Under the pieces are notes generated by a model. It did no database searches, was not told the DNA's origin, and saw only the letters and a list, made by a program, of their open reading frames with translations. A stretch of 27,573 nt of DNA, taken from a virus. Numbering within the stretch: position 1 is the first letter of the stretch; each line of letters begins with the position of its first letter. Of the stretch, positions 8,513 to 12,452 are shown piece after piece. Location of the stretch: positions 1 through 27,573 of IMG/VR virus record IMGVR_UViG_3300033182_001115; one strand, 5' to 3'. The translations under genes and the position numbers were made by a program.

Positions 8513-8769
8513 CGCCGATTCTTGACCGCATACGCGCCCATGGTGGCGAAGTTATCCGCGATGAATGGCGGATCAGGCTGCGGCGGGGTCGGCTGCCCGC
8601 GCCTGCAATCGCTTGGTTGCGCCAGCCGCATATTCAAACGGCGCTGCTCCTGGAAGTCTGGCCTGAGGCGGATGCCTTCGAGGAGCGCGCAGCAATCCGC
8701 GAATATTGCGGCGGTCAAGATCGCGCAGCAGCGGAGCGCGCGGCCTACGGGGAGGTCACCGCATGCTGA
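8509..8769 (+). CDS. Unrecognised small protein before the helicase (86 aa)
   Basis: MTPILDRIRAHGGEVIRDEW then RIRLRRGRLPAPAIAWLRQP is a basic segment that might touch nucleic acid, followed by a helical acidic stretch (LLEVWPEADAFEERAAIRE). It overlaps the previous gene by ATGA and the helicase by 7 bases, so it belongs to the replication operon. A helix-strand pattern at the N-terminus resembles small primase- or helicase-associated phage proteins, but no family is recognised. Confidence 0.75.
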   Translation: MTPILDRIRAHGGEVIRDEWRIRLRRGRLPAPAIAWLRQPHIQTALLLEVWPEADAFEERAAIREYCGGQDRAAAERAAYGEVTAC

Positions 8770-10325
8770 AGTTTCAGCCTCCAAAGGCGATCCAACTGCG
8801 CGATTACCAGGCCGCCGCAATCACAGCCCTGCGCGAGGGCCTTCGCGCCGGCAAGAAACGCCAACTTCTGGTCGCTGGCACCGGGGCCGGCAAGACCCTG
8901 ACCGCCGCGCATATTCTGTATGAGGCGGCCCAGAAAGGCAGCTATACGCTTTTTATCGTCGACCGGGTGGCCTTGGTGGACCAGACCTCAGCGGTGTTTG
9001 AGGCCTACGGCATCCCGCATGGCGTGGTACAGGGCAGCCATCCCCGCTGGTCTCCCAGAGAAAATGTCCAAGTCTGCAGCGCCCAGACCCTCGCACGCCG
9101 GGTTTTGCCTCGCGATCCAGACCTGATCATCGTCGATGAGGCACACTGCCAGTACAAGGGAACCCTCGATTACATGGCCGTGCACGCCGAGGCGGTAAAG
9201 ATCGGCCTAACCGCGACCCCCTTTACCAAGGGCATGGGCCATCACTGGGATGGTGTGGTCAACGTGATCCCAACCCGCGCGCTGATCGAGGCCGGACACC
9301 TGGTCGAGCCGCTCATCTACGCCGCCCGCGCCCCCGACGACGCGGAATTGGGCCTGAACAGCTACGGGGAATTCTCTGACCAATCCGCCACGACGGCGGG
9401 CATTCAAATCATCGGTGATGTCGTCTCGGAATGGGAGGCAAAGGTCGGGGCGCAGTTCGGAGGGCCCGCCAAGACCATCGTGTTTTCGCCCACCGTCGAG
9501 CACGGTCGTGAGCTCTGCGCAGCCTTCGCCGCGGCGGGATATAATTTCCAGCAAATCAGCTATCTGGATCGCTCAGATACGGAGCGCGCCGAAAAGATCG
9601 CCGAGTTCCGCAGACCCGATAGCCTGATCCACGGGCTGGTCTCATGCGGGGTGCTGACCAAAGGTTTCGATGTGCCCGATGTGGCGGTCGGCATTTCCTG
9701 CAAGCCCTATCGCAAGAGCTTGTCGAGCCACATGCAGGAAATCGGTCGGGTGATGCGGCCGCACCCTGATGTGCCCCAAAAGCTGTGGCTTTGTCACAGC
9801 GGCAATATCGAACGCTTCGCGCTCGACATGTTCGACGTCTGGGAGAATGGCGTCGGTCAACTCGACACCGCGACCACGCGCGATAGCACACCCCGCAAGC
9901 GGGATCAGCAGGTTCGTGAACGGGTGGTCTGCCCCGAATGCGCAGGGGCTCTGCGTGGCCCGACCTGTATGGCATGTGGATGGGAACGGCCGGCACGGTC
10001 GCGCATTCATGCGCTCGAAGGGCAATTGCTTGAGTTCAGACGGCCTGAACATTTGGTGCCCCGCGACGGGCTGCGCGCGGACATCCTTGGCGACCCCCGC
10101 AAAGTCTGGGAGGGCGCACTGGCCTATGCAATGGCACATACCCGCAAGAGCGAAGATCATGCCCGGCGTTGGGCCTACGGGATCTGGCGGGGCGTCTATC
10201 CGGGCGCAAGGCTGCCCTTCGGCTGGTTTGAAGCACCAGCGCCGATCCTGCCTGATCCCGCGGCCTATGCCTTGGCCGAGCGCGAGACAAAGCGGTTTCG
10301 CAAGACCCTCCGGAGGATGTCATGA
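8763..10325 (+). CDS. DEAD/DEAH-box (SF2) helicase with zinc ribbon (520 aa)
   Basis: The SF2 motifs appear in order: Q-like QLRDYQAAAI (~11-20), Walker A VAGTGAGKT (~37-45), motif II VDEAH (~124-128), motif III LTATPF (~149-154), then motif V/VI regions GVLTKGFDVPDV and QEIGRVMRPHP. After the helicase core a Cys4 ribbon (CPECAG...CMACGW) appears, then a helical C-terminus. It uses ATP to move on or unwind DNA and is probably the replicative or origin-opening helicase of the phage; type III restriction-like helicases share this core, but no nuclease domain is seen. The ATG at 8763 follows the overlap pattern and leads directly into the fold. Confidence 0.93.
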   Translation: MLKFQPPKAIQLRDYQAAAITALREGLRAGKKRQLLVAGTGAGKTLTAAHILYEAAQKGSYTLFIVDRVALVDQTSAVFEAYGIPHGVVQGSHPRWSPRENVQVCSAQTLARRVLPRDPDLIIVDEAHCQYKGTLDYMAVHAEAVKIGLTATPFTKGMGHHWDGVVNVIPTRALIEAGHLVEPLIYAARAPDDAELGLNSYGEFSDQSATTAGIQIIGDVVSEWEAKVGAQFGGPAKTIVFSPTVEHGRELCAAFAAAGYNFQQISYLDRSDTERAEKIAEFRRPDSLIHGLVSCGVLTKGFDVPDVAVGISCKPYRKSLSSHMQEIGRVMRPHPDVPQKLWLCHSGNIERFALDMFDVWENGVGQLDTATTRDSTPRKRDQQVRERVVCPECAGALRGPTCMACGWERPARSRIHALEGQLLEFRRPEHLVPRDGLRADILGDPRKVWEGALAYAMAHTRKSEDHARRWAYGIWRGVYPGARLPFGWFEAPAPILPDPAAYALAERETKRFRKTLRRMS

Positions 10326-11239
10326 GCTTGGAGGCTGCGATGCACGATGCCTGCACGGCCGTGGGCATCCGCCCGCCGCGGCGGGCAATTCCGGGGCGCT
10401 GGATCGCCTCCCCCGCCGAGGGCAAGGCGGCGAACAATAGCGCGGGTCGCGTGCTGGTCTTTGACGATCGGTCCGGTGGCATTGCCTGGAACTGGATAAC
10501 GCAGGCGCAGCAGCGCTTCACTGCAGACGGACTCGCCGGCTTGCAAGACGTGCGCGCCCCACGTCGTGACCAAACGGCAGAGGCGCTTGAGCGAGCACGT
10601 CAGGCGGCGGCGATCGAGGCGGCCGGGCGCATGGTCGCCGCCGCGCAGCCTGAGCCACATCCTTACCTCGCCAGAAAAGGGTTCGCCGAGGAATGCGGCT
10701 TGGTGCTGGATGCTCCGGAAACCTTCGTGCCCGCGGACAGCGTCTTTGACGGCATGCGCTACCAGATTGGGCAGATGACCGCTCCCTTCCTGATTATCCC
10801 GGGCCGCATCGCGAAACAGGTCGTCACAGTGCAACTGATCGATGCGGACGGCACAAAGTTGAACATGAAGGCCGCCCCAATGGCCGGAGCAACCCATCGG
10901 ATTGCCGCGGGTCGCGAGACCTGGGTCTGCGAGGGGATTGCAACGGCTCTCTCTATCAGAGCCGCCCTTCGCCTCCTGGCGCGCTCCGCCACCATCCTGT
11001 GCGCATTCTCGGCCGCAAATGTTGCCAAGGTATCTCAACGCATCGCAGGCAGCATCATTGCAGCGGATCACGACAGGCCACTAGAGCAACTGCATGGGCA
11101 GGGCACGGGCGCTTTCTACGCCGCCCGTACGGGCCGCGTTTGGACGCAGCCACCTGATCTGGGGGATTTCAACGACTGGCACATGCGCGACGGGCTTCGG
11201 CCCGTAGCCCTGCATCTGCGGGAGGTTCGACCACCATAA
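10322..11239 (+). CDS. Toprim-domain primase-like protein (305 aa)
   Basis: The N-terminal ~110 residues (RRAIPGRWIASPAEGKAANN, then SGGIAWNWITQAQQRFTA) resemble the domain before Toprim in phage and plasmid primase/helicase proteins. The Toprim part shows TWVCEGIATALSI with the catalytic Glu at ~204, and IIAADHD with the DxD-type acids at ~249-251. LIDADGTKLNMKAAPMAGAT between them fits this family. It probably makes primers for phage replication beside the helicase, whose stop it overlaps by ATGA. A CHC2-type zinc finger is missing. The end is a clean TAA, followed by the non-coding block. Confidence 0.88.
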   Translation: MSLEAAMHDACTAVGIRPPRRAIPGRWIASPAEGKAANNSAGRVLVFDDRSGGIAWNWITQAQQRFTADGLAGLQDVRAPRRDQTAEALERARQAAAIEAAGRMVAAAQPEPHPYLARKGFAEECGLVLDAPETFVPADSVFDGMRYQIGQMTAPFLIIPGRIAKQVVTVQLIDADGTKLNMKAAPMAGATHRIAAGRETWVCEGIATALSIRAALRLLARSATILCAFSAANVAKVSQRIAGSIIAADHDRPLEQLHGQGTGAFYAARTGRVWTQPPDLGDFNDWHMRDGLRPVALHLREVRPP

Positions 11240-11915
11240 TGCCATCACATCGCCCGCTGCGTCGTGCGGGCACACTCAGGCTTCAAGCGCATCGCAGCGG
11301 CCTGAGCGGCATGGGGATGGCAAGGTCCCGGTGCAGCGCCGAAAGCCTGCGACATAGGCTCCCCACAGTAGCCCCCGGACAGTGATGGACGGACGCGAAC
11401 GAGCCACACGACGCCAGACGCCTTGCCCACACTGGACGCGGGGGCACGACCACCCGCAGCCGCCCACGCATGGCCATCGGAGAGCGTGACGCGGTGCCGC
11501 CAGGTCCCGAATGGGAGCGAAGCCACGGTGAAGGGTGACAGCCTGACCCCACCCGCGCCTCACAGCGCAGCCGCTCTGATGGTGTGTGTCTGCGTGTCCC
11601 GAGGTCCCAAGACCGAAAACAGCAGCACCCTTCGTCCCGACGACGGGCGAAGTGTGCCCAACGGAACCCTCAGAACCCAGCCCGAAGGACGCTGGGTGAG
11701 CTCACGAGGATCAGAGCAGCATGAGCAAAAACAGCATCGGCTGACCGCTGCGCGCGTCGCGTCCGACGCCAAACAGCAGCCCGCTTCAATGGGGTCGGCG
11801 CGCAGGACGCCCAATGCCTGCGGAGATTTCGATCCGACGACGGCGGCCGATACCGCCAAACATCAACCGCCGTCGCCTTCCACCCCAAGCAGCCAACCAG
11901 AAGAGGAGACCACCC
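11240..11915 (+). ncRNA. Candidate large structured non-coding RNA region (~676 nt)
   Basis: No convincing gene lies here: the long frames on either strand read as Arg/Pro/His/Ser-rich chance sequence and lack ribosome-binding sites. Hairpins are frequent. Perfect or near-perfect stems include 11252-11257/11266-11271, 11275-11281/11300-11306, 11344-11348/11356-11360 inside 11313-11317/11360-11364, 11505-11508/11513-11516 with a GAAT loop, 11630-11639/11644-11652, 11675-11681/11691-11697, and 11748-11755/11798-11805. Near the end, 11839-11846 can pair with either 11853-11857 or 11867-11874. The block lies inside the right early operon, between primase and RuvC. Large phage RNAs such as GOLLD and ROOL are the natural comparison. 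Single 5-8-bp stems are expected by chance in such GC-rich DNA, so the case rests on density and absence of coding. RNA boundaries are not known. Confidence 0.45.
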
Positions 11916-12452
11916 ATGGCTTACCCGACTCTGTCCGGCATCGACGCCGGCACAACCCCGAAAATGCCATCGCATTTGGCACCGAACCATACAGTCTTAG
12001 CGCTGGATCTAGGCACGACCACAGGCTGGGCGCTGCGTGCCTTCGATGACCTCATCACCAGCGGAACTGCCAGCTTCAAGCCCAGCCGCTATGATGGGGG
12101 CGGCATGCGCTATTTGCGGTTCACCAACTGGCTCACCGAGATCGATCGGCTCTCTGGACCAATCGAGGCGATTTATTTCGAAGAGGTCCGCCGACATGTT
12201 GCAACGGACGCAGCCCATGTCTTTGGTGGTTTATTGGCTGTCCTCACCAGCTGGGCGGAGTTGCGGGGCGTACCGTATCAGGGCGTGCCGGTCGGGACCC
12301 TCAAGAAATTCCTCACGGGCCAAGGCAATGCCAACAAACAGGCCATGGTCGACGCAGTACGCATGCGCGGGTTCAGCCCCGCCGACGACAACGAGGCCGA
12401 TGCCATCGCCATCCTGCTGTGGGCGATCGAGACGCAGGGAGGGCTGGGATGA
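11916..12452 (+). CDS. RuvC-like Holliday junction resolvase (178 aa)
   Basis: The RNase H fold begins with VLALDLGTTTGWAL, the first catalytic Asp being ~31. IEAIYFEEVRRHVATDAAHV follows, with Glu at ~89-90, and the final acids come in PADDNEADAIAILLWA at ~157-163. KKFLTGQGNANKQAMVDAVR is typical of phage and bacterial RuvC relatives. It cuts branched DNA before packaging or after recombination. The start at 11916 has a good ribosome-binding site (AAGAGGAGA, 7 bases upstream); the first 22 residues before the fold are loose. It is the first gene after the non-coding block and overlaps the next gene as ATGA. Confidence 0.9.
   Translation: MAYPTLSGIDAGTTPKMPSHLAPNHTVLALDLGTTTGWALRAFDDLITSGTASFKPSRYDGGGMRYLRFTNWLTEIDRLSGPIEAIYFEEVRRHVATDAAHVFGGLLAVLTSWAELRGVPYQGVPVGTLKKFLTGQGNANKQAMVDAVRMRGFSPADDNEADAIAILLWAIETQGGLG

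Follow-up and report, generated by a model that had tools for sequence, protein, structure and literature searches.

Between the primase-like and RuvC-like genes of the window (the whole 27,573-nt stretch analysed, a virus contig of 27.6 kb), we located a gene for a structured non-coding RNA, RNA-1, on the sense strand of the helicase–primase operon. RNA-1 and a second form, RNA-2, represent a well-supported large structured RNA of many alphaproteobacterial phages. It was also found in about 5% (16/295) of the sampled genomes of one order and is not in Rfam, although an earlier description in the large Weinberg surveys is possible. Both forms end in a short direct repeat, X. Its two copies, X1 and X2, are matched within each RNA and yield a covariation signal of identity, not of complementarity, which has to be explained by a mechanism dependent on sameness.

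Composition of the gap

The 676-nt gap between replication genes given in the earlier note was exact: the primase-like ORF ends at 11239, and the ATG of RuvC at 11916 is in frame with 12452. The assignment of the two neighbours as a Toprim primase and a RuvC-like resolvase was also borne out (Table 1), and the primase-like gene is itself preceded by a DEAD-box helicase gene (8706–10325). The gap is non-coding, as had been proposed, with stop codons in every frame of both strands across several homologues. A conserved frame, which would have refuted the proposal, was looked for, and no frame was open across the RNA-1 family. Indels among the homologues were mostly not multiples of three (98/559 = 0 mod 3). 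These stops and indels ruled out a coding gene in the gap or an N-terminal extension of RuvC.

We compared the gap with loci found via the primase (33 viral, 5 bacterial) and via RuvC (80 viral). Gap positions 8–446 (window 11247–11686) recurred behind primases with 70–83% nucleotide identity, and positions 588–676 (11827–11915) recurred, with about 80–94% identity, immediately before ruvC at about 50 further loci. The ~140 nt between these blocks had no match in any compared locus, and none of the loci found via primase or RuvC held both blocks. Since the blocks never occurred in one relative and the spacer was unmatched, the window joins a replication module and a ruvC module from different phage lineages. 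By this comparison, the gap consists of two joined modules, RNA-1 and a ruvC leader. The single RNA of ~676 nt suggested earlier was thereby reduced to one of about 430 nt, the rest being spacer and leader.

Table 1. Features of the gap and its flanking genes (window positions), and gene order in RNA-bearing islands
Feature	Position	Strand	Remarks
Primase-like protein, Toprim domain	10322–11239	+	Pfam Toprim_3, PHROG DNA primase
RNA-1, structured non-coding RNA, ~430 nt	11247–11686	+	11 homologues (blastn/nhmmer); RNAalifold covariation
P1 hairpin GCCCGC/GCGGGC	11252–11271	+	directly behind primase; 3/6 pairs with double changes
P2 stem CTCAGG/CCTGAG	11275–11306	+	consensus helix
Core domain	11474–11582	+	closed by long-range helix CCATCGGAG (11474–11482) / CTCTGATGG (11574–11582)
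GGTGCCGCCAGG	11493–11504	+	invariant in 11 sequences
Covarying stem	11533–11553	+	near-invariant loop GAC[A/C]GCCTGACCCC at 11537–11550
X1, first repeat copy CCAAGACCGAA	11607–11617	+	in and behind small hairpin
3' hairpin CTTCGTCC..GGGCGAAG	11627–11655	+	between X1 and X2; consensus helix
X2, second repeat copy CCCAGCCCGAA	11676–11686	+	inside window-specific stem ACCCAGC/GCTGGGT (11675–11697)
Unconserved spacer, junction of the two modules	11687–11828	no strand	covered by no homologue
ruvC leader	11829–11915	+	separate element; about 80–94% identity upstream of ruvC, about 50 loci
RuvC-like Holliday junction resolvase	11916–12452	+	PHROG 159
L195 island			integrase–AlpA–RNA, then HsdM, HsdS, HsdR
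L197 island			integrase–RNA–HsdM–HsdS–HsdR
L198 island			integrase–(AlpA)–RNA; Gabija GajA and GajB 3.5 kb on
L199 island			integrase–AlpA–RNA

Structure of RNA-1 and RNA-2

RNA-1 begins just behind the primase stop and ends at X2, and its 11 relatives all lay behind homologues of the same primase gene. The covariation check advised in the earlier note was run on the alignment of the relatives. RNAalifold gave 82 consensus pairs for the 11 sequences, 42 of which had double compensatory changes. Paired cells amounted to 95.3%, as compared with 83.4% in shuffles, and neither a shuffle (0/500) nor a slid-structure control came near the observed covariation. Folding of the RNA-1 part as a single sequence yielded no excess stability over shuffles (z = –0.07), and the case for RNA-1 therefore rests on covariation. 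In several relatives, the RNA showed 70–83% nucleotide identity, yet the primase showed 48–65% amino-acid identity. The reservation that the stems might be chance products of GC-rich DNA without function thus held for the folding energy, which equals that of shuffles, but not for the covariation or these identities, and we consider this explanation practically negligible. With compensatory changes present and a protein frame absent, the reading of the region as a large structured RNA was upheld. G–U pairs exceeded A–C pairs (83 vs 10) and the sense strand folded better than the antisense strand; these leanings, to which the folding program itself contributes in part, favour a reading of RNA-1 in the direction of the operon (+ strand).

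The helix that closes the core showed double changes at 9/9 pairs, with 99% of cells paired. The loop of the covarying stem within the core also occurred in the distant matches L163 and L164. One stem quoted earlier, CTTCGTCCCG (11630) / CGGGCGAAG (11644–11652), is part of a helix that every one of the 11 relatives retains. Another, ACCCAGC (11675) / GCTGGGT (11691–11697), is present but peculiar to the window rather than family-wide. A resemblance to RNase P seen by eye in the 5' part of L013 and L022 (AGGGTGAAAGG, GGTAAC) had no Rfam support, and the pattern hits L129 and L130 were attributed to chance.

RNA-2, of about 310–340 nt, occupied the place downstream of the primase in nearly all homologues without RNA-1, sometimes behind an inserted small gene. 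Its core has four helices with covariation, and a crossing pair among them forms a pseudoknot. The proportion of paired cells was 97.6%, double changes were found at 15/23 pairs, and the shuffles gave 0/500. Either RNA-1 or RNA-2 was present in 36/38 homologous primase loci. L114 holds a third form, which has diverged but shares the 3' end, so that 37/38 loci carry some form, and L115 was the sole primase locus of the 38 without any. A small ORF that begins within the RNA-2 3' hairpin was rejected, because its frame was not kept.

The RNA-2 model gave no match to RNA-1 at E up to 5; locus and 3' architecture are the same in both. The rhizobial helicase–primase locus L177 appears, from its sequence, to link the two forms. 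It contains an RNA-1 core match (51 bits, E 8e-10), and its X (ACTGCCAA) has RNA-2-like flanks (GGCTCCG-X1, CTCACCA-X2).

Rfam searches at gathering and loose thresholds (E up to 5) returned no relevant match for the RNA in the window, in its relatives or in the RNA-2 loci. RNA-1 matched no Rfam family, in agreement with the new class that had been thought possible, and the proposed membership of GOLLD, ROOL or HEARO failed, with no covariance-model match in the window. GOLLD and ROOL are borne by phages and prophages (PMC12286853). RNA-1 and RNA-2 resemble GOLLD, ROOL and OLE as large non-coding RNAs of unknown function, and RNA-2 resembles them also in being pseudoknotted. GOLLD and ROOL measure 600–800 nt and belong to tRNA islands, whereas RNA-1 and RNA-2 measure 310–430 nt, lie in a replication operon and carry the matched X repeat. 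The only tRNA of the window is 11 kb from RNA-1.

The matched repeat X and candidate mechanisms

The 3' plan common to RNA-1 and RNA-2 consists of a small hairpin with X1, a long hairpin and X2, with 60–100 nt between the X copies. X varied between relatives, with words such as CGGTTGGAACA, AGTTCAGAAAC, TCGGCAGGAC, CCAGCATGAC and CCGATGAC in RNA-1 and CCAGCAA, CCAGCGA, ATGAGCAG, ACCGACAC and TTGAGCAGG in RNA-2, and X1 was matched to X2 within each RNA. Permutation of the X2 zones among relatives gave 0/20000 for the 11 RNA-1 sequences and 0/20000 for 30 RNA-2 sequences, which is a strong signal rather than an exact probability, as the sets include near-identical sequences. The register of X was set once the repeats had been initially inspected, and the same zones were used for the permuted pairs. 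The identity of X1 and X2 itself seems to be under selection. We know of no RNA family defined by a matched, fast-changing direct repeat. Two records were scanned in full (42 and 37 kb); in each, X occurred exactly twice and antisense X was absent (up to 2 mismatches), which argues against an antisense partner encoded by the phage. Exact antisense X words were likewise absent from the other loci. Sameness would be needed under three mechanisms: the RNA hybridises with template DNA further along its own gene, a polymerase performs template jumping, or a single reader recognises both copies.

Our first choice is a replication pre-primer for the phage or island, which we hold tentatively, as quite possible but short of probable. 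The transcript would fold, and X1 in the RNA would hybridise with the template DNA strand at X2; X1 and X2 would then have to be identical, whatever their letters. The 3' end of the persistent RNA–DNA hybrid could prime synthesis, or the duplex could be opened for the neighbouring helicase–primase (cf. ColE1 RNA II). In islands without a primase, the element would be retained as a site of action for phage replication proteins. We prefer the pre-primer because of the helicase/primase neighbourhood, the changing downstream genes (SSB, RuvC and others) and the islands without a primase; the variation of the downstream gene also makes a single-gene switch less plausible.

ColE1 RNA II and the R-loop origins of T4 are precedents for RNA-started replication (PMC5043065, PMC4412123). 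The likeness to ColE1 RNA II concerns the way of working only, namely a long folded transcript that pairs with template DNA further on (PMC5043065, PMC4412123). Unlike ColE1 RNA II, the present RNAs occur in phages and islands, adjoin a helicase–primase and have a matched short word in place of G/C tracts. ColE1 has the antisense RNA I, whereas none was seen for RNA-1 or RNA-2.

Some observations speak against the pre-primer. The RNA of several prophages immediately precedes a terminase gene, which would suit packaging. X1 and X2 of the window agree at only 9/11 letters, and the mismatches among X pairs include A/C, a kind unfavourable to an RNA–DNA hybrid. Cumulative GC skew in eight records had no turning point at the RNA. 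The broader proposal, that this is a new class of RNA programmed by its own flank, via identity between the X of the folded part and the X past the 3' hairpin, and constitutes a portable replication start common to phages and defence-carrying islands, is possible, though less likely than not. If true, such a start, common to phages and restriction or Gabija islands, may tell how these islands spread.

A trans-acting RNA is somewhat unlikely. X1 and X2 would be two copies of a recognition word, either a seed or a protein site, for a partner of the host or of a rival, and the word would drift with that partner in immunity, anti-defence or helper recognition. This would suit a stand-alone gene in phages and islands, the placement of X1 in and behind a small hairpin, and a variable X with a conserved core. 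The P4 CI and P1 c4 immunity RNAs have short direct-repeat words that vary between relatives, and act through a complement of the word elsewhere in their genome, whereas no such antisense partner was found for X in the phage. Moreover, a conserved host partner would not allow words as different as CGGTTGGAACA, AGTTCAGAAAC, TCGGCAGGAC and CCAGCATGAC.

A cis-acting mRNA element, such as an attenuator, a riboswitch for the next gene or a 3' UTR that stabilises the primase mRNA, would agree with the position inside the operon, a few nt past the end of the primase gene, and the ruvC leader is an example of a leader in this region. This is nevertheless distinctly unlikely, since the downstream genes differ widely and the upstream gene of the RNA varies too, being an integrase, AlpA or head genes, or an inserted ORF (L001, L009, L032 and L116).

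An element (cos/pac-like) or RNA (pRNA-like) for packaging, borrowed by the islands from phages, would account for an element common to islands and for the RNA beside a large-terminase or terminase-like gene in L196, L204, L205 and L215, where it precedes terminase or portal genes. We regard it as improbable, because the terminase gene of the window is about 4.5 kb away and a pure DNA site needs no RNA covariation with G–U pairs; to our knowledge, pRNA is known only from phi29-like phages.

Template jumping makes tandem copies in the case of the DRT2 defence ncRNA. Here, a polymerase would copy the X2–X1 hairpin segment, and the new end would re-anneal from X1 to X2, giving tandem copies. The mechanism requires just what X offers, an identical direct repeat, of any sequence, that flanks a template segment, here with 60–100 nt between the copies. 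No reverse transcriptase (RVT_1) was found in the window record or in seven relatives, which makes template jumping less likely and, in our estimate, quite improbable.

Distribution, islands and the ruvC leader

The 16 genomes with the RNA-2 core came from a whole-genome search of the order of Rhodobacter sp. NTK016B. The RNA-1 core was found in a few genomes of the order or family of Martelella limonii, and in the wider Alphaproteobacteria its model matched at least 1 of 385 genomes, with few candidates scored per genome. RNA-2 and RNA-1-like copies also occurred in small islands of alphaproteobacteria (Table 1); the AlpA-like genes were assigned by visual inspection, without a family search, and no primase was recognised in the integrase(–AlpA) islands. 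Those that carry type I restriction or Gabija genes are possibly phage satellites. PICMIs are small integrase islands with defence cargo, including type I restriction (PMC10803314). They belong to Vibrionaceae and have a prim gene, whereas the present islands are alphaproteobacterial, have no recognised primase and hold an RNA gene in common with phages.

In the isolated Paracoccus phage Shpa, RNA-2 lies behind the primase, at about 32.97–33.33 kb of KR072689, which renders it testable now. The hypothetical proteins gp47 and gp48 of Shpa (KR072689.1 33048–33443) are annotated over RNA-2, a likely misannotation. In L143, the primase is gone and RNA-2 is kept behind a helicase and a small gene; in L157, a compact integrase element, the primase is also gone and RNA-2 is kept behind an AAA protein. 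Two to three copies of the RNA-2 core within 30–80 kb of one chromosome were observed in G464 (L201, L208) and G520 (L200, L212), near recombinase or other mobile genes.

The second module of the gap is best called a conserved ruvC leader with a putative RNA structure. Its hairpin (11836–11846/11867–11877) and a competing pairing (11842–11846/11853–11857) are mutually exclusive. The competing pairings reported earlier for 11842–11846, with 11853–11857 or 11867–11871, are thus present but belong to this separate leader, not to RNA-1. Covariation was limited to one pair, and the shorter stem had none. The leader contains AGGAG, which resembles a ribosome-binding site. An Rfam match to Scr6925 (E 0.54, minus strand) was discarded as noise. 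The leader also occurs in Shinella sp. PSBB067, with two matching places in the record.

In L034–L111, a short word that varies among the phages is repeated in arrays 100–450 nt upstream of ruvC. The words include GGGGACCT, GTGAACCT, GTGTTCTG, CCAGATTTC, GGGAATGT, TTCCTCAT and TTCGTCC, and come with conserved linkers such as CAATGAAATCAATGGGTTA. These iteron-like, fast-changing arrays are possibly another origin with a drifting word. At the left edge of the window, a tRNA-Ser (TGA, 49–138) beside a large serine recombinase gene (899–2407) may mark an attachment site.
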